64,000 bases of DNA, taken from Ulota crispa. Its lineage: Eukaryota; Streptophyta; Bryopsida; Orthotrichales; Orthotrichaceae. The notes beneath the pieces are model-generated. The model was not told the DNA's origin. It was given only the letters and a program-made list of their open reading frames with translations, and searched no databases. Location: NCBI GenBank assembly GCA_963920765.1, contig OY987243.1, positions 20,889,419 through 20,953,418 of the forward strand, read 5' to 3'. This document shows positions 9,501-63,753 of the stretch, piece after piece; within the stretch, counting starts at the first letter, position 1; every line of letters starts with the position of its first letter. The translations under genes and the position numbers were made by a program.

Positions 9501-10541
9501 GAGTGAGAACATAGATTTTATTGATGTTGCTGTTGATGCAATTGCTCACTGGTATATCAATCAAGCGATAATTGGCCCCAATCGGCACAGCTGGCTTGGC
9601 GCGCTTCATAGTCAAGGGAAACAATCGAGTTCCTGCTCCTCCACCAAGGATGATGCCAAGCACACTCTGCGAATATGAGATCAGGTCCGGTCAGTTCAAT
9701 CCGTCGTCAGTCGAAGACGGAGAAGAAATCTGGACTGAGAGTTCATGCAGTTGATGACACTCCATGTCCTTGTGCATTCAGTGCAATTCAGCAGCACATT
9801 AATCAAAACCTTAGAGCACAATCGAGAATGAAATCAGGAGAAAGGACGAAATTCCACAATAATCAAACAGTCCACAGCATGTGAGAACAAAGCGAAAACA
9901 ACTTGCAATACATCAATGAAAACATACAAAGTGCACTCATCCTTTGAAATGAATTCGTGTAATTTATTATCCATTACTACAACAGCAAGGACAATCATCT
10001 CAAACAAGTCATCCTTGCAGAAAAGCCATTTACATCTCTTCACAGGAAGGGGTTTTGAAAGTCTTCAAACAAGCTGGATCTTAGATACAAAGAGTTTACT
10101 CGGCAAGAGCAGAAAAGGAGATCACTCCAATAGCTTCACTTGAGAGAATTAAAATCTCAAGGACGAAGAGAGAGGGACACCTGAGCTTCTGTCACAATAA
10201 CACCAGATTGTGAAATAGAAAATATCATGTTTCATGTAACATATATTGAGATTTTTTTTTATAATTGTCATTGTGATTGGAAAGTTTAAACTTACTCGAC
10301 TATAATCGAGGTGCAATGAATAATCACCGTCCACGGAATAATCCGAAGCAGCCCGCGCAAATACCGATCCTTTCCTCGAGCTTTGTTTTCTAGGGCTGGC
10401 GTTCCAGGAAACGTGCGCCATTCTCGTTCCTCTCAAATAAGACCACGTGAAACCACAGCAATTGGAGCCAGTGAATCTTGATACAGAAGGAAATTTGATG
10501 GCGGTTGGCACCACTACTGGTGATGCCCGTGCAACCGCCAT
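6516..10541 (-). CDS. APS1: ADP-glucose pyrophosphorylase small (catalytic) subunit, plastid
   Basis: This enzyme makes ADP-glucose and pyrophosphate from glucose-1-phosphate and ATP, the committed step of starch synthesis in plastids. It works as a heterotetramer with large subunits. Nine exons join in phase: 10296-10541, 9370-9666, 8845-9114, 8421-8600, 7964-8067, 7629-7740, 7318-7416, 6787-6906 and 6516-6632, giving 514 aa, close to the usual 515-520. Visible motifs are the nucleotide-binding [12 protein letters not shown] (about residues 90-101), the catalytic GDHLYRMDY, the substrate-binding FAEKPKG and the effector-site region DKNARIG near the end. [15 protein letters not shown] and the C-terminus GTII match small rather than large subunits. 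The first 80 residues look like a transit peptide. I chose the ATG at 10541; an in-frame ATG at 10592 would add 17 residues. The cysteine usually found just before [10 protein letters not shown] is absent (see findings). Confidence 0.93.
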
Positions 10542-11927: not shown

Positions 11928-12610
11928 TATATCACAACTATCAAAAACATCCACACGTATTTCCACAACATTAAATTAAATAAAGCTTAAAATTGAATGT
12001 ATTTCCAATACAAGATTGAAGTGCACTAATTTCATTTTCAATAAATCTTTATTCCAATTGCAAAATAATAGAGGTTATTCCTTCATTCAAATTCTAGTAA
12101 ATTCTTACTTAGTTGCAATAAATGCTAATAATAAGATTTGGTACGTACACTTTAAAGACTTGTCTCAAATGTGTGAATGGTTTCTTGTCCCTTTGCACCA
12201 AATTTGTTAAAATCTCAATTTTTGACAATTTCAAAACACATTGCTTCTAAATATGGGATTTTAAATATGACATTCCACACCAATTTTGTTCATGTGAATT
12301 AGATTTATGAACAACCCGGACTTAGTCGTGACTTCATATTCACCGTACATGATCACTTGTTCACAACCACTTGTTCACTACTTATCTGAGATATTTGAAC
12401 TCTCACTTGTCCCGTAATGTTTTGACTGAAAGACCAAAAAAACACCCCAAGAAAACAGGAAGAAATGACAATTCCAACCTTATGTTTTGAAACGGGTTAC
12501 CGGCTAGGGCGGTCGCCCGTCAGTCTCTTTCTCCTCTTCCACCAACGTTTCCTCACCTTCCCTTCATTTCTGTCGTCGCCGTTGTTCGTTGTGGTTGCAA
12601 ATTGGTGGAG

Positions 12611-37066: not shown

Positions 37067-37902
37067 CACTAATAATGGTATTTAGTGTTATGGTACTAAT
37101 ATAGTTACCTGCACTTTAACTTCATTCACTCTAAATCTCAACTAGTTTGCAATTAGAGTTGTCTTCTTTTTGTGCACACCACTCTTTGTTGCCTCCTTCA
37201 AACTATGTGAACTTTGAGAACGTCATATGGGAACTTTAGGAAGGTCATGTGGGAACTTTGGGAACATCATGTGAGAACTTTGGGAACGTCATGTAGGAAC
37301 TTTGGGAACATCATGTGGGAACTTTGGAAACATCATTAGGGACTTTGGGAACGTCACATTGGAACTTTGGGAACTTCATTGGGAACTTTGGGAACATCAT
37401 ATTATAACATTAAATTAAAAAATTAACTTTTTTTTGAAGAAAAAAATTATGACCTTATTTAATAAATTGTAACAATTTATTTTATTTATTTTTTGTTTTC
37501 AAATTTTTGGATTTTTGGATTTTTGGATTTTTGTGGAATTTTTGGAATTTTTTTGGAAATTTTTGGAATTTTAGGATTTTTTTAATTATTTTTCATCAAT
37601 GAACAATGACAATGATTTTAATCTAATGGACAAACTCAATCCAGCCCAAGTTTGTAGTTTGTGCCAAATAGTTGTTTAGATATTAACTCATAAATCTAAT
37701 TTATATTTTTTTGTTGTAATAAAATTGAACCAATTTCTAACACTAAAAGTTAACTTGTGAAAAAAATTTACTCCCAAAAATTACAATAGTTGACAAATAG
37801 TGTATAGGTTGACATTTAGTATTGGTAACATTAAGGGGATTGTTGACATTTAGTGTTGGGGTTTGTAGTTAGTATTGCCAACACTAAATACCATTATTAG
37901 AG
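37067..37902. mobile_element. CACTA-like non-autonomous element with internal minisatellite
   Basis: Left end CACTAATAATGGTATTTAGT, right end CAACACTAAATACCATTATT followed by AGAG. The terminal inverted repeat is about 23 bp and starts as CACTA elements do. No clean 3-bp duplication remains. The interior holds a 21-bp minisatellite and an AT-rich block of GGATTTTT repeats (about 37508-37580), but no coding region. Confidence 0.55.
37196..37402. repeat. 21-bp minisatellite
   Basis: About ten tandem units of the form GGGAACTTTGGGAACRTCATG, between 18 and 22 bp long. It lies inside the CACTA-like element at 37067-37902. Confidence 0.85.
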
Positions 37903-38439
37903 TAGTAAACAATAAACAGTGGGACCTCCTCACATATGTCATAGGCTGTCAAATTCGTCACCAACTTGTCTTCTTTTTGCCACAAAAAAATGCTTTGATG
38001 CATAGGGCCCACAATATTATCACTATTCTATGCTTAGTTGCTTCAAGAACTCTACATTGAAATTTCAAAAAAATCTCGTTGGCAACAACAGGGTTGCTAG
38101 GAGGCAAGCTTGTGAGCAAGAGCCTGCAAGCCTGTGAGCGTGGAGTTTAGGGTCTGGAAATTTAGGAAAGGGCCTATTACCATGGAGGTATGTGGTTAGG
38201 GTCTTACAAAGAGGCCTAATACTGTGGTATCATAGGCACAAAGATTAATTTGATTTTTAGGGACATTTGCATAAACAGTCTAGAAACATAAAAAGTGTGG
38301 ACAGATTGGAGGGACACAATCTTATAAAAAAACATTAGAAATAATAAGGAAATGAGCAAAGATAAGAGGTGTTTAGAGATATGAAATCAAACAACACAAA
38401 GCACAAACATATAGAAAAGGAAAGGCAATACAAAAAATA
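37903..38439. other. Spacer before the methyltransferase-like unit
   Basis: No coding region, terminal repeat or target duplication was recognised. If the 38.4-52.1 kb coding units are one transposon, its left end should be in or near this stretch. Confidence 0.35.
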
Positions 38440-41400
38440 GCGCTGCATCCATATGAATGAGACCAAAAATGCTAAGCCTAACTAGACTCATTAGTAAAGT
38501 CACTGCGAATAAGGTCCACAGATGATCCCTGCCCAACCGCTGCCATGACATCCATAAACTGTAAGACATCAGTAGAGTATCTAGGGGCAGACAGAGAAGG
38601 CTTCTTAGTACCATAATCTTCATAAGCCCTTGCCATTTTCTGTGCATAATCAGGGTAGAAGATTTCCTTATCCGGACTAATCCACACAGCTGAGGTGGAC
38701 TTCACTTTGGTCTTCTTCTTTGTCTTCACCCTAGCTTGGCTGATTAAATAGTAGGTAGATAGTGTTAGATTAAAACAAGTGCGCAAGTTTAGGATAGAAT
38801 GTGAAGGAATTAAAGAATGACACTTATTTACAAGCTCTATTTTTCCGTTGGAACTCCATGGCAACCACAGGACCGTCCTCTAGATCCTAAGATGCCGGTA
38901 TCGCAGGCGGTTCTTCTATTTGCACTGGAATAGCCATAGGAGTAGGAATAGTACAGATCATTGGTTTCAATCTTGCCTTGAATATACCCTCGTCCGCCTC
39001 TAAAGCAAGCAAATTGCGGCCGCTCACACGGTAGGCTTTGATGGATGCCCCTGCACAAAGAACAACTTAGAGGCATCTACAAAAACAAAGAGAGCATCAT
39101 GTCTTGAGTTTCTTAAAGATTAAGGGTTTAGGCAAAAACATACCAGTTGATGCAATGCAATCAATAACAACATCCCTAGGGGCTAAAGCAACTTTGATGA
39201 GAAGCTGGTAAAACAAAGCACCTTTCTCCCTAGGGCCTCTCCAAGGGATGCTCCCATTAAGTGTTAAGCTCTTCTTTGCTACAAAATTAGTTAGCATATC
39301 ATCAATTCCAATGTTGAGGCCTATCGTTTGCATCAACTCACTAACATGGAAGGAGAAATTGGAAAGCTTGTCCTTCCCTAGATCTTTCACCACCAATGAA
39401 ACTCCAAACTTTTGGGTCTGCAAAAACAAGGAATTCAAAACATCTCATCAGTGATCACAAAATGGACAATGATCCATATTAAAATAGAGAATGGACATAA
39501 AATACTCACTGTTGGGTAAATTTTGATGGGAGAGGCCAAATGCAGGCAATTCATGGCCTGCCAATCTTTTTTCAACGTCATGCCATAGGTCTTGCAAAGT
39601 CCAGCAATGTAAGATATGGATGTCTTGCAGCAAGAGTATACAACTACTACAGCAACATCATCATGAAGCTCTTTCTCAGCAAATTCAAACGCATCATTCA
39701 TGAGGGCAAACTACTTGTTCAAATTCTAGAAAAGACTGTCTAAAGCGGATGTGGAGATACCAAGAACTGTAAGGTTCTCTAAGCAATCAATAAGCATAAG
39801 TTACACTAGAGCATCCACGTGCAGCTTCCCCTTGAAGAGCCGATCCTTGCCTTTGGCAACCTACATTAGCACATTGCAAAATAAAAATAAAAGTAAACCT
39901 CATTCATACGGAAGACGTGAAGCTGCACAAGTACATTTTAAGGAATAATAACAGTCCTAATTCAAAGATAATGTATAGTAATGACAATAAACACCTTTTT
40001 CAAGAAGTCAAGGGTGTCCGTATAATTGTTAGGGCCGTCGCAATCCATGTCGTCCACCACATCAGAGATAGAAACATTGATGATCAAGGCTTCCATGATA
40101 ACATCCAAACTAATATCCATAACCATTACATCTGTCCCTTCAAGAACAGTTTCCTCTTCTTGAGAAAGATCAAATGCCATGTTCTTTCTCTTCAAGCTGC
40201 TCTAAGATCAAGTCTCCATGTTGGAGGTACCTGCCATTGACATTGGGCCATGGTCTACAACATCAGCCGAACCCCCCTTTGCAGCCTTGCCTCTAGGTTT
40301 AGGTCCCTTCTCCTTCTCAACTACTTTTTCTTCGGCTTTTTGAATCTTTTCAGCCTCTTTTGAAGCCTTCAATGCAATAATGTTGGCCTTTTTCAGCACT
40401 TTCTTTCTATTGGCTGCGACCCTCTTCTCAATTGCTTTGGCTTTTGCCTCATCGTCTAAACCCCTAAACTCATCAACGTTAGGATCTATCACCCCAAGAC
40501 CTTCTAAAGAATTACGCAACTTCACCTCTGATGAGTGAGTAAACTCAATGCTACAGTCTAAGTACCATCCATTACTAGCCATTACCGCCGTGGTGTAGGT
40601 TCCTTGCTGAGCAGTCGTAAACATGAACTCCGCAAAACTAATGTCTTGCCAAGAAGAGAGGAAAGGAGGTAAGTCCTCACGAGAAATAGCTTGCTTAGCT
40701 AATAGTTCACGCTTCAAGTACCTTCAGGACAGGAAGTAAGGAACAGATTAAATCAACATAGACATTAGGGAGTTGGCTACTAAAGAGCACACCTACGCAC
40801 TAATAAACCTAGGAGTATTGGAATAATTGAGACAAAAATCTCAAGCCAACCGAGAGAGGGTATCACCAGATGAAAAAATCAGTAGCAAAGAACAAGCCTA
40901 CAAAGAAGACATCCTGTCGGGGTTGGAAGTGGCCTAGCAGTGATACAAAAGCTTTGAAGACTGAACCACAGAATAATGAATATTTTGCATGAAGTTCATT
41001 TACGTACCTGTGGAGTACCCTTTGAATAGCAAGTTTAGAGCCGTTGAATTTGCCGAAATTATCACCCTTCTTGAAATTCCCCCTGCATTTGAGGTATCCA
41101 TTGAACCCATGGTCCTAGATCTTACGGCTCCAACCTTCTACGTATTTTGAGAGGGGACTCAAGCTCCATAGGACCAGACATATTCACATTTAGACTATCT
41201 TTCTTCAAAACGCTGTCGAAGAAAACTGCAACACCATTTTCCAGCTGAAAAATGGGAAGGACGACCACATATTAGATTCATGATGAACTAAAATGGTGAT
41301 TGCACAAAAAAAATCCAAAGGTTTGATAGATTATTATTGAGCAATTCAAAAAGAGTAAGAAGGAATGCGTAATTACCCTGGCATACCAAATGCATTTTGC

Positions 41401-44400
41401 CAAAAAAAATTTCAGAAGCTCGTCCGGCACAGGTCTAGGAAGGAATCATCTTGCCTCACAAGAGGGCAATGATGAATTCCACCACCTCAAGAATTTAGTC
41501 TTATGAATAGCAGTGGTGTTGCAAGTGGCCACAATTTGCAACTTGTCCAAAATCATCTCAAGAGTTTCATTGGAGTTGTAATGGATCTCCACCTATAAAA
41601 AAAATACCCATCAGGTGATAAAAAGCAAATAAATAAACAACAAGTACAACAAACTGAAACCAAACATAAAATCACATGTTTTAAAAATCCTTGCCATTAG
41701 CAGGGTGCGCCATAGACACAAGCTTCATCATCTTTGTATAGAGCTTCCTCCTCTTATCTTTGGCACCTAACCACATAGCATCAGTAGTGCCAATATTTGT
41801 GCGGTCCTCAAATAATGTTGCTTCATTATACTTTCGGATACCGTGATCAGTAGCTGCAGCTATCTCTTGCTGGATAAAACTCATGACCACGTCATCAACA
41901 AATTGAAGAGTAATATAAGGAAAAACCTCCTAGAAATACCATGATTTTAATAGCCTTTGCCAAAGACAGTGCCCACCCTAACTAACTACATACTCTAAGT
42001 CAACAAAAATTTCACAAAACATGCACTAATAAATATGCAATAGCATCATGCAATGGTGAATAATAAATGTAAAAAACACACAGCAATAATGAATTCCACG
42101 ACCAGAAAATAAGACTCCAATTTGGAGAAGAAATCATGCATGTCAAGAATCCATCTAGAAAGCATCTATTAACAAAGTCAGCGCCAAAGAAAACAGACAT
42201 CCCAACTAAGAAATTGCTGGCCAGGCTGCACAGTCAAATCACAAAGCAATACCGTTGCCATGGTCACTTGAATGTGCATGCACAACCACCTCAACACAAG
42301 CTCCTAATGACCAACAAACTATGACATGACAGGATTCTACTAAACTAAAAGCACAAGCCAGGCGTGCATCCGTGCAACCTGCGGACCTTTTTCAAGTAGA
42401 AATAGCTAAGGGAAACCTGAAGGGCAACAATGCCATGCCTTCATGCTAAGGGTGGTGCGGATGTGCGCATCACTCGGAGCAGTGTTGGCGACAATGTTGC
42501 TCCAGGTGGCGCGTGCATCCGCGCCACCTGAGGTTCTTACTTGAGTGCGTATGTGCATTGGTAAACCAGTATGGAACTGAAGCCTTGCCCTCATGCTAAG
42601 GGTAGCGTGGATACGCGCGCCACCCGGAGCAACGTCGGTGACGACGTTGCTCAAGGTGGCGCGCGCATCCGTGCTACTTGAAGTTCCTACTCAAGCGCAA
42701 ATGTGCAAAAGGAAACAATTGAGACAACAGCGCAAAGTATTCATGCTTAGGGTGGCACGGATGCGCGCACCACCTAGAGCAGCATTGTTGCCAATGCTGC
42801 TTTGGTTGGCGCGCGCATCCGCACCACCTCAGGTTCTTACTCAAGTGCGTATGTGCATTGGTAAACCGGTATGGTACTAAAGCCTTGCCCTCATGCTAAG
42901 GGTGGTGCGGATGCGCGTGCCACCCGGAGCAGCGTTGGCAACGACGCCATTGCGGGTGGCGTGCACATCCGTGCCACCCCGCAATAGACCTTTATAATTT
43001 TTGGGCACAACGCGAGCCTTGTTTCAATCAAGCCTGAAATGGCTGCGGGGAGGTTGTACATTGAGGCACCAGGAAGTTGTTTCATACTAAATGAGAGACA
43101 GTACTAAAAACATGTTTGATGAGCGTCAGTAGTCTCTCGTCAAACCAGGGTAAACTAGTTCTGAACTTGGATACTTTAGAAGCAATCGACTAGGCTTGGC
43201 AGACTTGTGGATGTGCATTTTTGTCAGGTTTCATATTAACATTTTTTTTTCATAGAATTCTCCATTGCATTGCAAAGGTCAACAACGTTACCCAGAATAT
43301 GAACAACGTCAAGACTTCCACTGGAGTGGAGTACCATGTCTTCCTCATTGCTGTTTTGGAACATTTATTCACTATAGACAACCGCAACATCTCCACAAAC
43401 TTCTCTCGTGGGAGTAGCCCATACTTTTGGACTCAATAAATTGTGTGAACCAAATTGGTCTTCACGTGTGAGTCCTCTGTGTGCCTAGAACATAGACCAA
43501 CCATTTCATGATTAGTGCTTCAAACCTCACAAAGTTGGCTACATGTTTTAGCCACTAACTACATCAACTTTTGTGATAATATTTTAGTTGTGAAGATTCT
43601 CACTTGTTTATGTTGTGTATAACTTGCATTACAAGCTCATTTTGTTCTTTGGTTTCCAGTACAATTGCGTCCACTGAAATGTGCCATGCCAAATCCAATG
43701 GGTGATGCTTCTCAATATGCTTCATCCAAGCAATTCTTCTGTGATTTTTGTCACAAACAAAGAGCTTTAGCTTCATCAAATACTGGAGCTCCGGATGACT
43801 GGCAAGAGTCTCTTTGTAGACCGTGTCTTCAGCCTACCAAAGAGTCCCCCAAGACGCCATCTCCTCCAAAGTAAACTCACTTGTTTCACCAAGCTCATTT
43901 GTGGTGGAAATGTAAAATAATGCAGAGCCGTCTCTATATCCATGGACAAACTCATTTTCCAACTTTGTCAAATCACTGGATAAGGTTGGCTTTACCATTG
44001 GCATTGGTACCAACCGGATAAGAGGAACTCGAAGTTGAAACAGTGATTCCGGCTTCACTCACAAGCTCGCTATTGTGGCAACACTATCCACTTTTTGCAA
44101 CTTGCAAAAATCATTCTCCAATAACTTGGCCTCATCCTTGTTTGGCTCATTGTCCAGCATCATTTCTTCTTCACCTTCCTTAGTAAATTCCGGCTGCATC
44201 ATCTCTTCCGTAGGTGGTGCATTGCAACTATTCTTGGCCTGGCTTAGCCCAATGGGCGTGACATTGTCCATCATTGTTGTGTCCTCAATCGCCTCTGTCT
44301 AGCTGAGCTCCACGGGGGTCCTCTACAATAAAAAGTTAAGAAGTTAATACTGAGATAACAATAAGCATATGCAAATTTGATTATTACTAAAGCTGCTATA

Positions 44401-46525
44401 ACGGACCCTCAATAGGAGATATTTGACTCAATGGAAATGTTATGGGAAAATATGACTCTCACCTGCATTGGTAACCCAATAGGAATGCCCTGTTTGTCCA
44501 CAACTGGCAATTGAAGACTGGAATCCTTGAGGCCCACGTTGTCCGCTGTCATCATCTCTACGTCATCTAACTCACTTGGATTTTTGATTAGCCGAGGCAG
44601 TAGTACACTATCTCGCACCGCAGTAGCTTTCTTTGAGGGTCCATACGATCTCTCATCTTCTGACTCCAAATCCGATACAGCCTGGTTCTTGGAACTCCTG
44701 GTTTGCATCATTGTTTGGAGTTGGCCAATTGCCTACAAATATCAAAGCATGCGCTAAAACTCCAAATACATACTTTTTACTCTGATCCTTGCGATGGTCA
44801 CAACATGTACTGCTAATTTTTGGTATCAAAACTAAGATGGCTCATATTTCTTGAGCATATCAATTATTAGTTTTAACTCACTATCTTGTTTTTTTAACTC
44901 AACTTTGACCAAAAATGCATTCATTTCCAAATCCTCTCTTTCAATTTTGGTATTACTATTCAGCATCTTGCAAAGCAAAGAGACATTTCAAGAAAATTCA
45001 AATTCAAAGTGTCCACGGTGGACAAGAATGTGCAATCAGTTCTGCATGTTGGCTGCATTGCTCTAAACTAGTCTCAAACTCTAGCACTTACGGCATTGCA
45101 ATCGTAATCTTCCTAGATTTCACTACAATGAGTATGTCTTTGATTTTGACCTCCACTACAAAGATTAAATCTATGAAATTTAGGAAGTTGACTGAAGAGC
45201 TTACTTACCAAGTTTGCAAGGAAGAACCCTAATCCCAAGCCCCGGCCGGCAGTTCAGGTGGCGCCGGAGGTTGACCAAACATTTCTTGACTGATTTTACT
45301 ACACAATTGCAAACCTACTACACCCTAACCGGCGCACTCATTGAACAATGACGTAACTCAACCGCAATTTGAGTCAGGCTGAGGACCACTTAGTTTCAGA
45401 TGATCGGAGAAAGACAAAGGCATGGGACACGGGCATGCCAATGAAGCAAGGCAGATGTGGGAGGGTGACAAAGGGTTTTGTATCCCTAAACAGCAACCCA
45501 TCCACAAAAACGAGGGACGGAATCCTATGTCATCCGTTTACCCCGTCGTTTAGTAGGTCTTTAGAAGGAGGCCTATTTTGCTCAAAGTAAGGCTTCCTTC
45601 CAATTTTATGAACCCAGCTCCATCAGGTTTTGCCTGGCAAATACTCTTAGCTAAACGGGCATTATAGGGTGAGCTATCAATGTCTCTGGAGATTAGTTAA
45701 ACGTGCCTAAAATATTATACCCCACAGTTAACAAACCAGCATGGGTGGTCTACTACGGTGTATGGTGATTGGTTAGTTCTGGCTAAATCATATCATTCAA
45801 CCCAAATGCAAAGCAATGAACTTGATTATAGGGGAATGGTAGGATTTGAAATTTCTTATTCCAATTGCATTACATTAACCTTAACGTATGAGCTACTATT
45901 ACAGTATTACCCAGTATCGCCAAATAAAACCCTACACTGCATGCTACGTTGTTGTGGGCCCAGGATTATATAAAGCATCATCAAAATAAAGCATTACATA
46001 CCTTTTTGCATGTTTATGTTCCTTCCCTGCACCAAAATGAACTTTGGATACTAATTAACTTTGTCAAAAAATACTTCATCGGGAAGTAGAATTGTTATAT
46101 TATTGCATTTGAAGAAATGTCTGAGTTTTGTAGCTATACTTACTAATGAACTCTTGAAACAGGAGTACAAGCAAAAGCATGAAAATTCTAAAGATGGTCA
46201 GAAATCATGGTTACCAGCAGCATACCTCCTCTAGCGATATTGACTCACACAAAGTTGATGACTGACTTAGCTCTTTCTTGTCTTCAAAATTCTTCACGTG
46301 TTCACAATTGTGTTGTTGAGTTTCACTTGCACAATCAAATTCTTCAAATGTTAGCACTTTCTGGACCCTATCACAAGTTTGAAGAAGCTCTGAGATAAGC
46401 TTTGTGCGTCTCTTCATTCTGTGCTGAAACTTGAGTGGCATGTGTAGTAAGGCTAACAATTCCTCAATTGACAATTTCCTATTCAAGGTCTTTATAGATT
46501 CTATAACAAAGTGAAACAGCAGCAC
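38440..46525 (-). pseudogene. Decayed gene with ParB-like and DNA-methyltransferase-like domains
   Basis: Minus-strand coding pieces with splice-like borders run through this stretch. In order of reading: a charged coiled-coil segment at about 46226-46525 (RKLSIEELLALLH), a further heptad-rich piece at about 44840-44960, acidic pieces at 44059-44711, and a ParB-like segment at about 43670-44056 with CDKNHRRIAW, which resembles the DGNHRxxA box. Then come a conserved piece at 41681-41890, a Lys/Ala-rich basic helix within 40208-40717, and at about 38950-39440 a methyltransferase-like segment with IPWRGPREKGALF, VVIDCIAST and GRNLLALEAD, the layout of the S-adenosylmethionine site of N4/N6 DNA methyltransferases. 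No clear DPPY or SPPW catalytic box was seen. The unit looks broken in several places. Origin is unknown: a bryophyte gene family, a transposon gene or a captured viral gene are all possible. Confidence 0.5.
42411..42981. repeat. 150-bp tandem array with palindromic sites
   Basis: Four units start at exactly 150-bp steps (CATGCTAAG-type landmarks at 42442, 42592, 42742 and 42892). Units 1-2 and 3-4 share the linker GTGCGTATGTGCATTGGTAA, so the real period is a 300-bp pair present twice. Each unit holds two near-palindromes of about 24 bp of the form GGTGGCGCG-(N)6-CGCGCCACC, 54 bp apart, eight in all. The array is GC-rich in AT-rich surroundings and lies between coding pieces of the minus-strand unit, probably in an intron. 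Confidence 0.88.
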
Positions 46526-47500
46526 ATTGCTATTGTTGCGACAATGTATATGTTGCTTTGGTTTTCCTTATTTTTGTACCTTACTTAAATAAATAGCATT
46601 TAGATGAGTTATGGGAGAATGACATCTGTCAATGCATCTGCACTTGGAGTGGTTGTACTTGAACGGATGTTGTTACGTCCTACTTCTGGAAGCCCCTTCT
46701 GCATTTAATGGTCTAGATGTAGTATGCCTAGGTGACGAGGTAAATTTAAACGACTATGTAGCTTGTCATTATTCCTTGATATTGTTAGCCCTAACTTAGG
46801 CCACATGGACGACAGTGTTGGATCCTTGATTTTAATTCCATATCCAAATTACCCTCCTGTCAATCTGGCTAAGATCCATTTGTATCATGACACAAGTCAC
46901 TACACTCCACATGTACAAGGGTTCGCCTCCACATGATCTCTGCATATATGTTGTTGTCGCCTTCACCATTACAGCATTATCAGATATTACAAAATCATTT
47001 TTAGATGATTAACATACTCATAATTTTTTGCCCATCCCTTTCCATTAAAAGCATGATTATGTATATGGTTAATTTTGGTGCGATTCTTTCTTTGTGGATC
47101 TTGGCAGTTCACTATCAAAGTTTGTGCCCTTTGCCTGTGATGGTCTGGATTGTACTTGCCAATGAATATGAGACTATATTGAAGCAATTCAATTTGATTT
47201 TTGGCAGACACACTAAATTTCATCCCTTCACACTATAGATTGTTCATCACTTGCAACTCTTTCAATGAAATCCATCCTTACTTCTATCATTGGTTGCAAA
47301 TTTTTGGTCACTTACTCGTCTAAGTCTTAGAACTATTCACTATTACGTAGAGTACTGTCTCTTTTGCGTCGTTCACAAGATCATGTGTAGATGGTACTCA
47401 CTATTCCTTGTGCTCTGTCTTTGAGTTGCAGTGCTCCGTCTTCTTGTTCAGCACATAGTGCCTCTATTGTATGGGACTTGTTGTGTGAAGTGTGATCACA
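46526..47500. promoter_or_regulatory. Spacer between two divergent coding units
   Basis: About 1 kb without coding signal separates the outermost minus-strand coding piece (ending at 46525) from the plus-strand transposase unit (first ATG at about 47501). It would be a shared two-way promoter if both belong to one element. No specific motif was recognised. Confidence 0.3.
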
Positions 47501-49824
47501 ATGGCTTCACTACATGCTGACGGCAATGACATTCCATTAGTTCTTCAGGTGGATGCTCATGGTAAAACTAGAGTGTCAAACCACCTCCTTCATGTTCATT
47601 TTTAGTTTGCACAGGCATCTGTATATGTTGAGGAAGAGGTTAAATCAGTTGATGGCATTTTGCTTGAATGTATTCCAGTGGAGAAAATTGTAGAGGGTGC
47701 TACTGAGTTTTGGAACTTATACATTGGATCATTCCGGGTGTATGGTCTGCCAATGGCGATCGCTTCATTCTCTATTGAAAGGCCAAGTCGCAATTCTAGT
47801 GGGTCAAGTGTAGACATGCCTTACATATTCCCTATGGTTTGTCCAGTTGCGCTTGACTGTGAAGACCGTGTGGAGGCTACAACAATCCCTCTTAGAGAAG
47901 TCAAAGTAGAGAAGCTTTCTCCCATTGTTGAATTTTCTAGTGAATCTGATGGGGACACCCTTCCCATTAACGTTCTAGCACAAGTGTCACCATACAAGAA
48001 CTACCTCCCGGATTTGACCTTAAAAAACTCAAGACCCATTACACTATCCAACTCCGCAAATATGTCAAATAGTTCAAGACCTCCACTTCACCCCAATACT
48101 GAGCGTCTCAGTATAGTACAATGTCTGAAAAAGTTAACATGTATGCATTGCCATAGGAGTGAACTGTTGCTTCTAGATTACTGTACCATAAAACATCATT
48201 GTATAGATTATTTGCCTCCTTGCTATGATGGGAATGTGATTTTTGAACTTCCTCCCTGTCGTTTTGGTGCTGTAACAACAAGTGCCAAAAATTTGGAGGG
48301 GATGGAGAAAAGATATGATGGTCATTTGTGGTGTAAACTCAAAACTACAAATATCCACAATGACAGTAACTTGTCCTTTTGGTTCACTGTTTGTGTGGGT
48401 CATTTAGCATGTGCTAATGTAGACTGTGAATTTACAGCAAGAGTAGGTCATTGTAACGAGACGGAGTGGAGTAGAAACACAACATCTGCATTTTGGGAAG
48501 GAAAAATTCTGCCTAAAGATTGCACTATCATCTACAAAGTCTGCAAAAGTTCACCCATTTGTGTCAAATTATGCGATGCACAATTGTACTATGTATACAG
48601 CAAAGATGTAGAATAACTAGGGCCGCTATTCACTTAGGGAGTCATGATCATCCGGTTGCTAAGAATTCGTACAGGGATTCGTCCAATGAGATTTGCAATC
48701 TCATAACCTTCCAAGTAGCTAAGACTCCTAAAGCAACAACATTCACCATTTCTTTAGCTGCTGCCAATGAGTTCCTCTCTAGTCACTTGTTCCATAGTGG
48801 CAACAGCAAAAAAATTGTGCTTGATAACAACGATAGAGACAAAATTATGGACCAATTTCGAAGCCTCAATAGTTCTAATATTAGAAATCTTTTTTCTTTG
48901 TTAAGGTCAAATAACCAAGGAGGTATCATTGATAATATAATGACAATGAAACATATGTCAAAGTTTGAATTCATACATGACTGTGTATTTCCTGGCCAGG
49001 GTTGTGAGAAAGTCTACTTATTCAAAATGCTAATTGAGGGACCAGGTAGCGGTGTTGATTTAGTGCAGAGAATGCAGTTAGGATGTGACCTTCAATTATC
49101 ATGGATGATGTTCGACCACGTCAAGCAAATAGATGATTAGACAACGATGGCTTGCCATGTTTATGATTCCGGATACAAGAAGGTGATGACTATTACAACA
49201 TGTGATATGCAGTCCAAAAATACAAAAATCCAAGTACAGTTCTGGAAATCTTTGAATGCCGTCATGACAAAGTTTGGAGTTCAAAGTCCTAACTTTAAAG
49301 GATTCATGGCTAACAGCGCCATGGCAAACTAGAGAGTTGTTTGTAATGTTTATGGATCTAGAATTGCAGAGGAAATCATGCCAAATCAAGAACGGACATG
49401 TCTTTTGCATTGGTGCAGTTCACTAGTAAAACATACACACAAGTACATCAAGGAGGCATTGCAGCAATAGCACATCACACTTTGCAAACAACATAAAGAC
49501 TCCAACACAATGGATGATGCTGAGACACAATATTTGGCTATTTGATCATGGTGGCTATCCTCAGGAGTAGCATCAGAAGATGGTTTGACCCATTTGAACC
49601 ACTGGCTTGATTTCTGGCACTATCGATATAAGCAATGAGGTGGCTCTTCACAAATGGTATGTTTTCTGTGGACCAACTAGTGCAAATTGTTCATTTCTAT
49701 CTATATATTCTTTTTTCCATATGATTTTGATACAGTTTTTTGTTAACAAACTTGTACTCGGACATTCTTTGTGTTGTGAGATTTATTCAACATATAGTCA
49801 TTTGCTAAGGCAACTGTAACTCTT

Positions 49825-50500
49825 TGAACATTTGTCGAAGAATTATATCATGGAGTGTGGACTGTTCATGAGAATAAGTTATTTAATTTTTGTGGGAATT
49901 CCTTCTCCAATGCTCATATCATTTAAACATTCATCCAAGAATGATTTCCGAGAGTGTGTGTAGTCCGTGAAAATAAGTTACTAAGTTACAGTTCATTTTT
50001 CATTTCACATGCATATGTTATGTAAACATATGTCTAAGAATGATGTCCGGGGTTGTGAGAAGTGTGTGAAAGTATGCTTCTAATTTATAGTTGAAAATCC
50101 CTCTCCAATGTTTATATCATATGAACATTCATCCAAGAATGATGTACAAGATTGTAAGTAGTCCGTGAAAATAAATGTCTATGTTTAAGTTGAAGTTCCT
50201 TCTTCAATGCATATATCATTTAAACATTCTTCCAAGAATGATATCCCGTGGTGCCCGATGTCCGTGAAGAGTTGTATTCTGACATTCATATAAAACCAGT
50301 GTCCTAGAGCACCCACTTTTACCAAGATGACGACATTGATCATTATACATAGTATGACGTCCTTGTGTAGTACTTTTTGTAAATGAACTGGTTTAAAAAT
50401 TCTTCCAAGAATGATGTTTTAAAGCTGATAATCACAAAGAAATTATCGTCATCCTATCAAAGTGTAGTGCAAATGAACATTCTGCCAAGAATGGTGTTCA
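49825..50500. repeat. About 100-bp tandem repeat inside the transposase gene
   Basis: A unit with the landmark AACATTCATCCAAGAATGATG recurs at 49825, 49924, 50023, 50123 and 50222, steps of 99-100 bp, with two weaker copies near 50395 and 50478. Units also share AGTCCGTGAAAATAA and TTCCTTCTCCAATG blocks. It lies between the two coding halves of the transposase unit. Confidence 0.8.
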
Positions 50501-51039
50501 CAAGGTATCACTGCCCGTCACAATTTTTGTTGTGTTTTACATTTTGTAATGAAAATTCTCTTGTATGTGTTATATGTAGAACTTTAACCTAGAAAAGTTG
50601 GCGGAATTGCCTACATGCAATTTGTCAAAGACCATCCACAACAATTGGCTCCAGATGTCTAGAAATCATGGAGGTAATCTATTTGAAGCTACATGTGATG
50701 ATAGTGTCTGAGCATGGCAGCAGATGACAAACTTCAGGTTTTATCTACTTCATGGCAATGCTTCTAGCTCTAGTCCTTCAACTAACAAGTTGAGATTAAG
50801 AGCTGCCAAGCGGAGCAGAGACCCTAAAAAGTTAGCTGAAGCACTCAACACATTGGCAGGAGAGGACGATCTTGGAACACGTATTCCCCATTTGGAGGGC
50901 AAAGAAGTATTTGGTAGTACTAAGAGGAAGGCAATCATCCCTATTGGTGACAAGGGAGAATCTCATTGCCATGATAAGGTAAATTTTTTGGAACCACGTG
51001 TGAAAAGGAGGTCCATAAGCAGTTTCAAAGTCCCGGAAT

Positions 51040-51173
51040 CACTAGTAAAAAAACAAGTCCACAATGACTAAGTGACAATGACTGCAATGACTATACAACA
51101 ATTAAAAAATGACTGTACAATCATGGTTTAGTCATTGTCACTTAGTCATTGTGGACCTGTTTTTTTACCTGTG
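51040..51173. mobile_element. CACTA-type MITE inserted in the transposase gene
   Basis: Ends CACTAGTAAAAAAACAAGTC and GGACCTGTTTTTTTACCTGTG, with arms of about 45 bp (CCACAATGACTAAGTGACAA and complement). The 3-bp sequence AAT flanks both sides (51037-51039 and 51174-51176). Same family as 1040-1194. It interrupts the coding sequence of the host transposon, so it is younger than that element. Confidence 0.88.
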
Positions 51174-52106
51174 AATGTGGACCAAGTACTTTACGGGAGC
51201 CCACAACTTCCACCTATGTAGCTGTTTCTTTCAAGAGTGATCGTGACACATCAAAATGGCACATTGCTAGAATCAAGCCTAAGTCCAGCATTAAGTCTCA
51301 TGCTCAGCAGCGGAATACAAATATCAAATGTACTGCTAAAGTAGGAAAAAGTTCAAAGGGTACTCTTGCTCCAACTTACCATGGAAGGAAGGTCAATTAT
51401 GAACGTTGTGAGGTGACAACAACTTTCTGGTTTTGTGCTGATGACATTGAACATTGCGTAAAAGGCTCTAAACAACAGTTTGTCATAGATTGGCCCAAAG
51501 TTCCTTAAGTATGGCCTATTCTCTCTGGTACTAACCTTACTCATGAGGAGTTCATTCTATTGCAGCATGCGGGTTTCAACTTGCAAGAGAGGCCGTCATT
51601 GTCCCCACGTGAACTTTTCGGCATGGCCACTCACTTTGAGTGCACTCTCTATGATGAAGTGGACCCACCTAATCCAGACTCATACCCCCAAGATGAGGCA
51701 GAACTCCATGATTTGTTGTCTCACCAATGTGCCAACCCCTAAGCAGAGGAATAAATGGGAAAGTGCAAGGAATGTTTGTGGTTCAATCTTGGGAGCTACA
51801 ATGCTGCCTCTGCTTGCCTTAGGGGCAATTATTTCACTAAAAATAGGATCTGGGGTCCATCAAAACATTTACCAAATTACAATAGGAAATTTCCCTACTT
51901 GCAATTGCCCTGATTTTACCAGTGTGGCTACTGCTGCAATTGGAGGTCGCCCGCAGTACGTGAATTGCAAGCACCTGTATTACTTGTTTTGGTACCACTA
52001 CAAGAAGGACCTCGTGAAAGACACTTTTATTCATGCGCCTAGCTTTAGCTACTATGAGGTTAAAAGCCTCCTCTATAGAGCTGGGATTATAAAAGTGAAG
52101 GTTTAG

Positions 52107-53112
52107 ATGAACATGTGATTTTGCTAAATGCTATTCTGTTCCTCAGTAATGACATCAATGTCACTCCTTCATATTATAGACCAATGTTCTATAATCGATC
52201 CCACATTTGTATATCCAATGACAACAATTTTGCAACTGCTCTTCCTTTAAATATATATTGGTCAATGCATACTTTCTTGGTACGTAGTATATCATGTGCA
52301 CAAGCTTCCTTTTGTACATTCCTTTTAGTATACGTAGTGACTGATTTGCAATTTGAGTGTCACTATGATGGATGTACTGTGCAAGATCAAAATTCAAAAC
52401 ACATTCTTGAGTGGTACTTTTATTTTATTTATGTTGCCCCGACCCTATAACTTGACCGTAAACTACTAATCTTTTTAACCACACTATTGTTTTGTTCTTC
52501 CTAGGTTGTGATCAAATGACATTGCCAAATATTATGCCCTCATTATAGCTCACCCTAAACCTTCAACAACCCTAATCTCCCTCTGCAGAAGGTTGTGATA
52601 AACATTGCTAAGCCATAGCAAATCAACTTCTCTCAATTATTAAACCTCCTCATCATTTTCATCAGAATTATCAACTCTGCTTTATTGTTGCCATGTCATG
52701 TGTTAGAATGACATAGAAAACTTTTGAACCCATCACCCATGACCGTATTATCCACACAGTCATGGGTGCAACCCTTCATCAATGGTAATAGGACCCCATT
52801 TTTAATTTCAGTAATAATCCCAATTTTTTACCAAAAATGTTTAACTAAATCAATAAGATTTCCATATATACTTCAATTCTTTAGATTTAAGGCTCTACAC
52901 TCATGACTTTCCCGCTCATGACTCACAAGCTCATCGCTCGCCGCTCCCCTGATAGCGTCGTTGGGTTCAAACAATCAATAGTCTTTTAGTTTACTAAACC
53001 AAAAACAAAAACAAACAAAAAACAAAAAACTTTGTTTATTTAAGCATTTTGCAAATTGTATAAGAAAAAATAGTGTTTTGTAGGAATTGCCTTCTTTGCA
53101 ACAATTTTCTTT
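52107..53112. other. Spacer after the transposase gene
   Basis: AT-rich sequence with no supported coding region. The right end of the transposase element should be here but no inverted partner to the 37.9-38.4 kb region was found by eye. Confidence 0.35.
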
Positions 53113-54664: not shown

Positions 54665-54957
54665 CATTACAAAGAAAATGAGGCCACTAGAAGGCCCCCA
54701 AATCCAAGCAGCAAGTTTTGTAGAAGAAATAAAATTTCAAAATTTCAAAAAACAAAAAAAAAAAAAACTCTTTGCTATTAAAAGCCTGTTGTCCAGGCTG
54801 ATAGACAGTATGTCAGCCCAAATAGCAGGCTTTTAATGGCAAAGAGTTCTTTTTTTGGTTTTTTTTTTGTTTTTTGAAATTTTGAAATTTTATTTCTTCT
54901 ACAAAACTTGCTGCTTGGATTTGGGGGCCTTCTAGTGGCCTCATTTTCTTTGTAATG
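54665..54957. mobile_element. Foldback element with 125-bp arms
   Basis: The arms (about 54665-54787 and 54827-54957) are near-identical inverted copies beginning CATTACAAAGAAAATGAGGC. The centre is about 40 bp. GTG stands on both sides (54662-54664 and 54958-54960), a possible 3-bp target duplication. The ends are not CACTA, so the superfamily is open. The well-kept arms suggest a recent insertion; homopolymer length (A runs against T runs) is the main difference. Confidence 0.8.
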
Positions 54958-61086: not shown

Positions 61087-62342
61087 CTTACATTAGTATA
61101 AAAAGATTGGATGTTTTCCATCTGGCAAAGGAATTTTTCGCATATACTTGGTGTGTATACACATTGAAAGGAATGGAGATTTTGTTAACAATTGAAAAAA
61201 AAGTTTTTGGAGATCATCTACCTCCAACATGAGTTTTAAACATGAATCTCAAACATGAGGTATCAAGGAAAACATTGATTACCTGATTATGTCCTTTTGG
61301 CCTAGTTAGTAGAACCACCCCTAAAGAACTCTTTATTCATTCATGATGGCGTTTTGGTTGGAAAGTGCTTTTGTATCTTTTCCTACATTTAAAAAAAAAA
61401 AAAAATTTGTCTTTCTTGAAAAAACAGTTAAATATCAACAAACTTTATCAAGCCCAACATTATACTACTAAAATCACACTGACGTTTGTAATATCACATA
61501 TCCAATGTTTGTGATATTATCACATAGATATAATATGAAGACTTATTGAAATTTTTACTTTGCATTCTATTTATCATATAAAGTCTTAACACAATTCTCA
61601 TAGTGAATGCATAGCATAGCAAGGGCCAACTACTAAACTCATTATAAAATTGTAATTATTGAAAAAGTCTCATGGTCATTTTATACTTGAATTGAGGTTA
61701 TTTTGGAATCAAAAAAAGGTTATAATCCTTGTCACTCATTGATTGAGGCATTTAGCATTTGAAAATGTCCGCTGTAGTAAAGGGAAGAACTTTGAATATT
61801 AAGTTAGTGTTTGAAAAAAACAATACAAACAAACTCCAACTCCAAAAATTGGGTTCACCAAGAACAGAAGGGCCAACCCATTGCCTCGAGGCAATTGTCA
61901 AGTTCTATTAAAAATAAAAATGTTGTAATTATTATTATTATTATTATATATTTGATAATTGCTATGGAACATATGCAAAATTTCCATGCTTTACACGATC
62001 TTTTTCTTTACTCCTCTTATGAAACTCTCAAGCCTAGTAATTAGGGTCCAAAACATTTTGGTTGTAAGGCCTTTGCACATAATGCGCATGATAGAGAGAA
62101 AAAGGCCCCCGTATACTTTTATTCAACAAGAGCTCCTATGCAATATATGACCAGTACAAACTTTAAAAAATTGGTCGAATTAGCCACAAATTTTGAACTC
62201 CTAGTAAACTTGGCCTTCACATTCTAAAATTTCAAATCTGCAGAAGAAAGGTTGACGGTGACTGACCGTCACAAGGACTCAAGGGACAAGGACAACGTGG
62301 CAAGAGCCAAGAGGGATGAGCTGCTCTTCCCCAAAAGTATAA
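61087..62342. other. AT-rich spacer with simple repeats
   Basis: Contains a poly-A run near 61390 and an ATT microsatellite at about 61927-61946. No gene recognised. Confidence 0.4.
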
Positions 62343-63489
62343 GGGAAAATATCAAAAATGGGCCTGACAAATGGCCGTATTTCGAAAACAGGCCTGACAA
62401 TTTCAAAATATCAAAAATAGGTCTCATCCGGTCCGGATCCAAGAAATGTTTGAGTTTTTGCAATTGAATTTCTTTGATTCCCAAACTAGTTTATCAAGGA
62501 ATTTTTCCATTATTTTCTTTATTTCATACTATAAACATTGGAAAACCAAATTTTTAATTGGCTATTTAGCCCATATTTACAAATTGCAAACGGTTTTTTC
62601 TCATTTCAACCGGCTAGCTTGGAACTAGCTGCTAGTTCTTCCCAGATGCCTCAACATATATGTAAAGTAGGCCTTGCAACTAAGGTGACCAAAATTTTGT
62701 GCATGTTTATTTATGGGAATTGATATGAGCACACCTAGAATATATGCACACTAGGGGAGGAATAAATTTTAAATGTTTATCATCAAAAAGCTAAATTTGG
62801 AAAATTTGAATTCATATTTGGATTTAGAGACCTTGATTTAGTCTAGAACCACAATGGACGTTACACTTGAACTATGCCCAATGGAAAATCTTAATTTTTT
62901 TTGCAAATAAGGATAAAGGAAATAATTTGCCCCCTATCTAAGCTTTTCCATTGGGCATAGTTCAAGTGTAATGTCCATTGTGGTTCTAGACTAAATCAAG
63001 GTCTCTAAATCCAAATATGAATTCAAATTTTCCAAATTTAGCTTTTTGATGATAAACATTTAAAATTTATTCCTCCCCTAGTGTGCATATATTCTAGGTG
63101 TGCTCATATCAATTCCCATAAATAAACATGCACAAAATTTTGGTCACCTTAGTTGCAAGGCCTACTTTACATATATGTTGAGGCATCTGGGAAGAACTAG
63201 CAGCTAGTTCCAAGCTAGCCGGTTGAAATGAGAAAAAACCGTTTGCAATTTGTAAACATGGGCTAAATAGCCAATTGAAAATTTGGTTTTCCAATGTTTA
63301 TAGTATGAAATAGAGAAAATAATGGAAAAATTCCTTGATAAACTAGTTTGGGAATCAAAGAAATTCAACTGCAAAAACTCAAACATTTCTTGGACCCGGA
63401 CCGGATGAGGTCTATTTTCGATATTTTGAAATTGTCAGGCCTGTTTACAAAATACGGCCAATTGTCAGGCCCATTTTCGATATTTTCCC
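62343..63489. mobile_element. Mutator-type foldback element with about 545-bp arms
   Basis: A 1147-bp element made almost wholly of two inverted arms (62343 to about 62886 and about 62946-63489) around a centre of about 60 bp. Ends are GGGAAAATATCAAAAATGGG and complement. A 9-bp flanking duplication, AAAGTATAA (62334-62342) and AAAGTATGA (63490-63498), matches at 8 of 9 positions. Long arms with 9-bp duplications are typical of Mutator-like elements. Both arms hold the same short open frames in mirror image, which are chance frames. The high arm identity suggests a young insertion. Confidence 0.88.
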
Positions 63490-63753
63490 AAAGTATGATT
63501 ATCTACCACTTGCACTTGTACTTGTACTTCCCCCCAACACCACCGTCATGTAAATTCTATTGAAATCAGGCTCACATACATTGCATTCTTCCAATGCCAA
63601 TCGGATATGGTACTCCGGATAAAATATTCTTCTTTACTCTAGAATGTCTGAAACAGCTCTCTAATTAATCCCTTACTTTTTTTAGTTGGAAGAAAAAGAA
63701 ATTTTAATTTCAGGAGAAAACTATTTACAGAGATCCCCACCGACTGGCCATAA
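63490..63753. other. Spacer between two foldback elements
   Basis: No feature recognised apart from the right-hand target copy of the Mutator-type element. Confidence 0.4.

Follow-up and report, generated by a model that had tools for sequence, protein, structure and literature searches.

A stretch of 64,000 nt of the Ulota crispa genome (contig OY987243.1, positions 20,889,419 to 20,953,418 of the forward strand; GCA_963920765.1), hereafter the window, contains a minus-strand unit with ParB-like and DNA methyltransferase (MTase)-like segments and, divergent from it, a transposase-like unit. This raises the question of whether the two form a single mobile element and what the second gene would do for it. 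An earlier, sequence-only reading of the window had linked the units by their position, and common ends at 38089 and 52963 now bear this out. The coordinates first given for the units fell in the right region but were slightly short, since the whole element of the window copy spans 38089 to 52963 (14.9 kb, decayed).

The left border at 38089 was common to 11 of 12 other copies, with Q as the exception and S judged by its end sequence, and the right border at 52963 was common to all 12. The termini of the window copy read CAGGGTTGCTAGG...GCGTCGTTG and include a short imperfect terminal inverted repeat, with CAGGGTTGCTA (partner CAACGACGCTA) at the left end (38089 to 38099, plus strand) and the right end at 52953 to 52963 (minus strand; TAGCGTCGTTG as plus strand); by eye, 7 of the 11 positions are equal. 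Directly inside the ends, most copies carry subterminal GTGAGC repeats. Exact target site duplications (TSDs) flanked nine of the 12 related copies, with a length of 10 bp in J, H, K, O, R, and S and 9 bp in I, Lx, and M. Copies N and P had a TSD with one mismatch, and the left-truncated Q had none. In some copies the TSD reached up to 12 bp if the ends were moved one or two bases inward. At the ends of the window copy itself, the search for a TSD gave no recognizable one. The interval from 46.5 to 47.5 kb showed no element border, and the alignment of copy B spanned the gap between the units, running from window position 46509 to 50048 at 73% identity.

Genome-wide, a transposase (T) was found within 20 kb at 83 of 109 ParB-like loci (merging distance, 1500 or 2500 bases), compared to a mean of 2.6 and a maximum of 7 linked loci in 200 runs of random placement, for which the length of contig C7 was an assumed value. 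The orientation was head-to-head in 82 of the 83 linked loci, and the MTase lay downstream of the ParB-like segment on the same strand in 71/74 (same-strand matches up to 400 bases apart were merged for this count, reducing 112, 150, and 118 to 109, 147, and 110). Because the borders are common and the recurrence is far above chance, both units almost certainly belong to one cut-and-paste (class II) DNA transposon with two genes. Units were also found alone: no transposase lay within 20 kb of 26 of the 109 ParB-like loci, both partners were missing at 37 of 136 transposase loci, and 60 MTase-like loci had neither a transposase nor a ParB-like segment as neighbor. Most of these separate occurrences are explained by decay and deletion, the 60 lone MTase-like loci perhaps not.

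The divergent transposase unit was recovered as a series of plus-strand exon regions between 47606 and 52103. Its Cys-rich N-terminal part, with CKVCK...C, is a 336-aa open frame (47606 to 48613) with relatives in L010 to L014 and in the distant copy Z. Near 48.6 kb the reading frame shifts to that of the core (48610 to 49680), a putative DDE region aligned across 10 copies (alignment A4) and marked by MFDHVK and FMANSAMAN, the latter with D in place of N in some copies. The core alignment had conserved Asp motifs and no profile match, and its AlphaFold model (10 rows) reached a pLDDT of 37.8. A WH_RGF3 match within the core was observed in 2 of 10 members (best, 5.7e-4; 0.025 in the window), and the Pfam scans of the transposase, MTase, and ParB-like pieces gave further weak matches to T4_deiodinase (0.011) and Imm63 (0.025). 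The third (50712 to 51068) and fourth (51146 to 51505) exon regions follow, and the last (51489 to 52103) contains a SWIM-like CxC (51900) and CxH (51966). The unit had been called SWIM-type; the CxC...CxH pattern at 51900 to 51966 stands, but the domain is weakly supported, Pfam SWIM (PF04434) scoring 13.9 bits in relative L018 and 10.3 in another against a cut-off of 19.6.

Profile scans of the transposase pieces, relatives included, matched no Pfam transposase family. More broadly, Pfam scans of the transposase, MTase, and ParB-like pieces returned no transposase, MTase, or ParB match, nor did family searches with the X-joined frames of the window, and nothing was confirmed in viral-contig searches with alignments A1 and A4. 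Kinship with MULEs, implied by the earlier comparison with VANDAL elements, was not supported by sequence. PF10551 matched at 54 places in the genome, none of them in the window; of the 53 compared (the one left out being the second piece of one locus), none was less than 10 kb away from a T locus (110 loci considered), and hhalign of the transposase against six MULEs of the same genome gave a probability of 0.2. KDZ was likewise rejected, as PF18758 matched twice at E up to 10, once above the cut-off (on C152) and in neither case at a T locus. As judged from these searches, the transposase appears to lie outside every family searched here.

In the minus-strand unit, all of the segments named earlier were present: e1 at 39965 to 40723, CDKNHRRIAW at 43603 to 44058, VVIDCIASTG at 39100 to 39444, and GRNLLALEAD at 38890 to 39066. 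The gene has a probable N-terminal exon at 46214 to 46567 (minus strand, as for all its parts), a candidate open frame, parts of which are 71 to 88% identical DNA in other copies. An acidic region (44062 to 44298) directly precedes the ParB-like exon (43603 to 44058), which carries the motif DKNHRRIAW; together the two have 63% protein identity to L027, and in the distant copy Z the motif reads DGNH...AW. The gene further comprises the charged, coiled-coil-like exon e1 (39965 to 40723) and a 3' exon region (38481 to 38879) with a ISPDKEIFYPDYAQKM... tail, this last region being conserved at the protein level in relatives. The name ParB-like comes from the motif and from no ParB profile in any search: no ParB match was obtained in Pfam, PHROGs, NCBIfam, PDB, or phages, the one plasmid match was unrelated, and Pfam ParB_N (PF02195) matched nowhere in the genome at E up to 10. 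The AlphaFold model of the exon (3 rows) had a pLDDT of 39.6. The suggested ParB assignment is thus one of the DxNHR...AW motif only.

The methyltransferase-like character of the other half was substantiated. In PHROGs, phrog_6952 was matched by 7/7 members (best, 4.5e-6), and in hhalign 62 columns of the motif-I half aligned with a probability of 96 and an E of 3.8e-9. With E limited to 10, a search of phage proteins yielded 158 records (best, 6e-3), and among 20 listed matches, 18 were labelled methylase or methyltransferase. Across the whole genome PF01555 had seven sub-threshold matches, two of them at MTase loci. This half consists of a motif-IV exon (39521 to 39860, ends approximate; LMLIDCLENL in the window, placed by eye), exon B (39100 to 39444) with GPREKGALFYQLLIK...DVVIDCIASTG, the SAM-binding motif I, followed by a GT-AG intron, and exon C (38890 to 39066) with ASIKAYRVSGRNLLALEAD after motif I. 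When exons B and C were spliced via the intron, VVIDCIASTG-ASIKAYRVSGRNLLALEAD was obtained; therefore, VVIDCIASTG and GRNLLALEAD, previously read as two segments, are one methyltransferase motif. Motif I lies downstream of the motif-IV region, which is the beta-class order, and an alignment with DpnA weakly gives the same order. On this sequence evidence, there is very little doubt that the MTase half is a real homologue of the beta-class N4/N6 DNA methyltransferases.

The catalytic residues presented a different picture. With motif IV positioned by visual comparison with VDLVLTDPPYNI of L055, the relatives read DLVLVDCPENL where DPPYN would be expected; the motif-IV half scored only 2.6 bits against DpnA, in an alignment that puts DCPE a few residues off DPPY. 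By eye, motif IV was D-C-[P/Q/L]-[E/K] in 7/7 aligned members of the W subfamily and N-V-A-D (ANVADG) in copy Z, so that in this placement the catalytic (D/N/S)PP(Y/W/F) was found in none of the seven W-subfamily members or Z. Visual comparison also indicates that most members retain motif I's second glycine (ASTG versus GSG) and the acidic position of ALE. Catalytic DPPY has apparently been replaced in the minus-strand protein, which would favor a protein that binds DNA but does not methylate it, or one whose chemistry has changed.

Purifying selection has acted on both genes. The median dN/dS was 0.15 for the transposase core, 0.23 for MTase exon B (21 pairs), and 0.23 for exon e1 (27 of 28 pairs), with dS mostly near 1 in the exon B comparisons between subfamilies. 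In the frame-shift control, conducted on one pair (the core of the window and L012), dN/dS was 0.14 in frame versus 0.86 and 0.98 in the shifted frames. The open frames are not due to chance, because dN/dS is low in frame and near 1 in shifted frames. The window copy itself is a dead fossil element, having six stops in the transposase core plus the frameshift near 48.6 kb and, in the minus-strand gene, three stops in the motif-IV exon, two in e1, and one in the ParB-like exon. The 12 copies fetched whole have kept their ends (Q without the left end). None of them retains the ParB-like exon or MTase exon B, and their transposase core is gone entirely or almost so, with about 0.3 kb still present in copy S. 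One deletion is common to 10 of these 12 short copies, and short copies without both gene cores have dispersed to several genomic places.

Within the transposase gene, between the core and the third exon region, is an array of six palindromic sites, ATTCTTNNAAGAAT (49830 to 50492). Pieces of 6/6 fuller copies contained four to six of these sites (up to 2 mismatches), and the 49 kb of window sequence flanking the element had none when at most 1 mismatch was allowed. The array sites differ by subfamily, being ATTCTTNNAAGAAT in the W group and CCTCGGATTCCGAGG in Z. Inside the minus-strand gene, a GC-rich palindromic minisatellite with a 150-bp period (42451 to 42978; six sites, up to 5 mismatches) likewise has matches in other copies. 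The claim of significant palindromicity for single arrays was dropped after a shuffle test, in which, where the ATTCTT site was the best palindrome, 3 to 62 of 100 shuffled units did equally well; the array of the window itself had a different best palindrome, which 21 of 100 shuffles equalled. One GC-rich array, from copy P, beat 100/100 shuffles.

Taken as a whole, the locus is likely to represent a dead two-gene transposon with an accessory working on the element's own DNA. The transposase would recognize the ends and move the element, and would act in trans on the short copies. The ParB-like part may find the element or load onto it, the palindromic arrays being one possible site, and the methyltransferase-like part would mark or merely bind element DNA; the second protein might in this way help the element to escape host silencing or to stay competent to move. 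Considered separately, an accessory role of the second protein, directed at the DNA of the element itself, stands at about even chances, and an anti-silencing purpose is put forward tentatively, as somewhat less probable than that. A far-reaching version, which we regard as doubtful, would make this a superfamily of plant transposons that have an addressing system of their own, in which ParB-like loading occurs on intronic, subfamily-specific palindromic arrays, a catalytically silent MTase-derived domain occupies DNA against host silencing, sites and protein co-diverge, and the transposase falls outside the Pfam superfamilies. Since the second gene resembles a phage DNA-methylating protein and recurs beside the transposase dozens of times, it appears that DNA machinery of the phage type has been taken over by a jumping gene.

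The second protein could instead be a transposition co-factor, serving excision, end pairing, or integration rather than anti-silencing. Such a role has been considered for the second genes of other transposons. The constant head-to-head linkage is consistent with it, the subterminal GTGAGC repeats of most copies could be candidate sites, and ParB-type domains have been tied to nuclease and NTPase activities (PMC5512222, in excerpt). Nothing specific speaks against a co-factor, and the same observations also fit the accessory reading; a co-factor is considered rather unlikely. An active DNA methyltransferase, which would place N6-methyladenine or N4-methylcytosine on the element and thereby mark activity or block host enzymes, a role that has been proposed for the algal proteins discussed below, draws support from the methyltransferase homology, from the purifying selection on exon B, and from the motif I second glycine and acidic ALE position, mostly kept by eye. 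The absence of Pro2 and the aromatic residue from motif IV in 7/7 W-subfamily members, and ANVADG in Z (by eye), argue against it, and activity of this kind seems unlikely. If the methyltransferase-like gene were a passenger, a captured sequence functionless for the element, then copies without its core could spread to several places, as they have, and gene capture is frequent in transposons; a dN/dS of 0.23 between subfamilies with dS mostly near 1, and an arrangement repeated at 82 loci, render this very improbable. The accidental adjoining in the window of two unrelated mobile elements or genes, as the sometimes separate units might suggest, is refuted at the family level by the common borders, the continuity of copy B over the gap, and the 82 head-to-head pairs, and has practically no chance of being correct.

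The accessory reading can be compared with several known systems. The sequence-only reading knew of no described plant transposon with ParB-like and DNA methyltransferase domains; in the open-access PMC literature none was found for land plants, but algal ones have been published. According to excerpts of PMC12477816, Sola1-1_Ec32 of Ectocarpus is a 21.5-kb DNA transposon with a ParB and N4/N6 methyltransferase gene opposite the transposase, ParB-methyltransferase accessory genes also occur in green and red algal transposons, and the authors suggest that the proteins bind and modify their own element. The arrangement is therefore already known from algal transposons, and the likeness, by description, extends to a large element with a ParB-like and N4/N6 MTase gene opposite the transposase. 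Unlike the algal systems, the present element has a green-plant, probably land-plant, host and palindromic arrays described here, its catalytic motif is apparently altered, its ParB part is at the level of a motif, and its transposase has no match among the Pfam, MULE, and KDZ models compared.

VANDAL elements, which are Arabidopsis MULEs, resemble it in being transposons with a second gene, VANC. As excerpted from PMC10398659 (see also PMC5735166), VANCs are reported to bind noncoding regions of their own element, which form fast-diverging tandem repeats; the arrays found here are likewise located in what seem to be noncoding parts, and those of the W group are unlike those of Z. The transposase here differs in having no MULE domain, and the second gene carries a DNA-methyltransferase-like domain instead. 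Similarities to MULE/Mutator elements include the TSD of 9 to 10 bp, within a MULE range given as 8 to 11 bp in an excerpt of PMC6446971, the CxC...CxH near the C terminus, and a C-x-x-H-like motif that, by eye, follows the second Asp, whereas PF10551 is not found near T loci and the terminal repeats are only short and imperfect. Fungal DNA transposons with TET/JBP also use a DNA-modification-type enzyme as an accessory, one thought to stem from phage-bacteria conflict, but in the excerpted account (PMC12730594) this is a dioxygenase, not a methyltransferase, and accompanies KDZ, hAT, EnSpm, and other transposases. Phage ParB-N6/N4 methyltransferase fusions exist (excerpts of PMC12704722 and PMC5512222) and combine the same two domain types in one protein, with phage MTases related in sequence to the MTase half here; the present protein differs in being eukaryotic, with introns, with its catalytic motif apparently lost and its ParB homology unproven by sequence.

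What appears to be new is the green-plant, probably land-plant, host, the unclassified transposase, the apparently altered catalytic motif, and the arrays. The accessory type, which the literature searched here reports from brown, green, and red algal transposons, is extended to a probable land plant, whose genome alone has over 80 linked loci. That purifying selection has acted on a domain apparently lacking the textbook catalytic residues raises the question of its role if it does not methylate, and the palindromic arrays offer concrete candidate sites for self-recognition, alongside the VANC and TET/JBP elements.

The genome (274.8 Mb in 157 contigs, with the window at C2:20889419-20953418) was searched with protein queries from both genes. 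The ParB-like, methyltransferase (MTase) and transposase queries gave 112, 150 and 118 hits, corresponding after merging of adjacent pieces to at least 109, 147 and 110 loci, respectively; a second transposase query gave at least 150 hits at no fewer than 127 loci, and the union of transposase matches comprised at least 136 loci. Each searched on its own, the two units recurred adjoining, in constant order and orientation. Among the matches listed, a transposase lay within 20 kb of 83 of 109 ParB-like loci, with 82 of the 83 pairs head to head, whereas random placement on the same contigs (200 runs) gave a mean of 2.6 and a maximum of 7. ParB-like and MTase matches lay on the same strand with the MTase downstream in 71 of 74 listed pairs, and 99 of the 136 transposase loci had a listed ParB-like or MTase neighbor. 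The sequence-only reading had joined the units by position; this recurrence and the shared ends at 38089 and 52963 bear out a single element, and we consider it almost certain that the family is a real two-gene DNA transposon.

The same reading held that copies of one unit without the other would count against the link. Most loci were paired, but among the matches listed partners were absent at 26 ParB-like and 37 transposase loci, and at least 60 MTase-like loci had neither a transposase nor a ParB-like match within 20 kb. These lone MTase-like loci, L062 (C4:16166660-16167650) and at least 59 others, many about 30 to 45% identical to exon B of the minus-strand gene, possibly represent a separate gene family or a different element carrying an MTase. 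Of the 74 MTase loci listed without a ParB-like match, 14 had a transposase nearby (13 divergent) against a random mean of 1.9 and maximum of 6; therefore, some subfamilies may lack the ParB-like exon or carry one too divergent to recognize.

All-against-all comparison with 12 other, shorter copies placed a sharp left border at 38089, common to 11 of them, and a right border at about 52963, common to all 12; copy S showed its left border through the end sequence plus a match of 50 bases, and copy Q lacked one. The ends, CAGGGTTGCTAGG... on the left and ...TAGCGTCGTTG on the right, form short inverted repeats that match imperfectly (by eye, 7 of 11 positions are equal), with GTGAGC repeats directly inside them in most copies. 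Target-site duplications were exact in 9 of the 12 copies, measuring 10 bp in J, H, K, O, R and S and 9 bp in I, Lx and M, lengths that presume CA...TG ends plus one extra G in copy I; with the ends moved one or two bases inward, a 12-bp match appears in J, H, O and R. Copies N and P had one mismatch and copy Q no duplication, and no clear duplication was seen at the ends of the window copy. A border at 46.5 to 47.5 kb would have separated the units; the alignment of the fuller copy B runs continuously from 46509 to 50048, and hence no border lies between them. The element is preceded, at a distance of about 0.7 kb, by a 22-bp minisatellite (9 copies, 37204-37402); a little to its right is a perfect inverted repeat of 99 nt around a 95-nt spacer (54665-54957). 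Elsewhere in the window are an inverted duplication (62272-63560) with near-identical open reading frames at 62398-62625 (+) and 63207-63434 (-) and, by sequence match, host exons for the chloroplast ADP-glucose pyrophosphorylase small subunit (9331-9690, -), NADH dehydrogenase iron-sulfur protein 5 (12491-12835, +) and phospholipase D alpha 1 (20829-21404, +). These matches show the host to be a green plant, likely a land plant and conceivably a moss.

The minus-strand gene comprises a probable N-terminal exon (46214-46567) upstream of the ParB-like exon (43603-44058), followed by e1 (39965-40723), the motif-IV exon (39521-39860), exon B (39100-39444), exon C (38890-39066) and a tail (38481-38879). 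The five from e1 onward were defined by splice sites together with comparison at the protein level. The proposed methyltransferase-like segments (VVIDCIAST, GRNLLALEAD) proved to be joined by a GT-AG intron between exons B and C, giving ...DVVIDCIASTG-ASIKA..SGRNLLALEAD. Spliced domains from seven copies all matched PHROGs DNA methyltransferase family 6952 (best 4.5e-6), and three matched family 3008 (best 3.7e-4). With one of them as query against phage sequences, 158 records matched at E up to 10, the best at E 6e-3 with 24% identity over 79%; among 20 listed, 18 were labeled methylase or methyltransferase, one was unannotated and one was of unknown function. Profile comparison with four phage MTases (PF01555 in all three scanned) gave a probability of 96 and E 3.8e-9, the 62 aligned columns corresponding to the motif-I half; DpnA headed the PDB profile search, though only at E 0.54. 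At the catalytic DPPY position, placed by eye against phage-enzyme VDLVLTDPPYNI, all seven carry D-C-[P/Q/L]-[E/K] (VDLVLVDCPENL) and the distant copy Z ANVADG; the motif thus appears changed, its loss being uncertain because a 2.6-bit DpnA alignment of the motif-IV half is offset by a few residues from this placement. The ParB label stands as a motif, DxNHR...AW (DGNH...AW in copy Z), but profile searches of Pfam, PHROGs, NCBIfam and PDB gave no ParB match.

Comparison of relatives defined conserved plus-strand transposase exon regions at 47606-48613, 48610-49680, 50712-51068, 51146-51505 and 51489-52103. In a 10-copy core alignment, FDHV was invariant and was read, with FM(A/V)(D/N), as the two Asp of a putative DDE site; at the second position the window copy and several relatives have N. 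The gene had been called SWIM-type; SWIM matches in relatives fell below the Pfam threshold, and Pfam scans of its pieces matched no transposase family. MULE and KDZ identities found no sequence support in genome searches and profile comparison. An RGF3 winged-helix Pfam model matched the core (49402-49584) weakly but recurrently (0.025 in the window; best 5.7e-4 in 2 of 10 members).

For the transposase core, the 18 of 45 pairs whose dS was unsaturated had a median dN/dS of 0.15; the median was 0.23 both in exon B (all 21 pairs; range 0.13 to 0.65) and in e1 (27 of 28 pairs); the ParB-like exon gave 0.19 and 0.25 (two of three pairs with finite dS). For the window-L012 core pair, the value rose from 0.14 in frame to 0.86 and 0.98 in shifted frames. 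Therefore, both proteins were kept by selection while subfamilies diverged. The window copy itself has decayed, with stops in both genes. In all 12 short copies exon B and the ParB-like exon are missing, together with the entire transposase core or almost all of it, and 11 (not S) retain e1 wholly or partly. Since 10 of them share a gap from about 38549 to about 39780, a single deletion derivative was probably amplified in trans.

An array of ATTCTTNNAAGAAT separates the transposase core from the exon region that follows, with 6 sites in the window and 4 to 6 (up to 2 mismatches; 0.15 to 0.30 expected) in pieces of all six fuller copies (window, B, C, D, F and G). At up to 1 mismatch, each of 13 elements held 5 to 14 sites, and the remaining 49 kb of the window none. 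The 14-bp core carried 1.66 bits against 0.44 outside it (122 instances, short copies), a value partly due to choosing instances by the core and drawn in part from tandem duplicates. Copy Z had a single chance-level match and, inside its ParB-MTase gene, eight sites of a different palindrome, CCTCGGATTCCGAGG, with no more than 3 mismatches and mostly spaced about 84 bp apart; the window minus-strand gene also holds a GC-rich palindromic array. In shuffle tests of single arrays, shuffled units were often equally palindromic. We propose that the accessory, minus-strand protein would bind such sites. In many short copies (K, M, N, P and others) the array forms two blocks, oppositely oriented where checked (J, P and R: L033, L047/L048, L050).

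The accessible text of related papers covers TET/JBP-bearing fungal transposons, with VANDAL cited there (PMC12730594), ParB-methyltransferase fusions (PMC12704722, PMC5512222), MULE features (PMC6446971), VANC (PMC10398659) and methyltransferases in retrotransposons (PMC5890265); that of PMC12695648 and PMC13317346 holds nothing on land-plant ParB-methyltransferase transposons. The sequence-only reading knew of no plant transposon with these domains, and no land-plant report was found in the open PMC literature; algal ones are known, Ectocarpus Sola1-1 among them (PMC12477816). In kind, the element is a variant of these algal ParB-methyltransferase transposons, differing in its green-plant host, its transposase outside the families searched, its apparently changed catalytic motif and its palindromic arrays.
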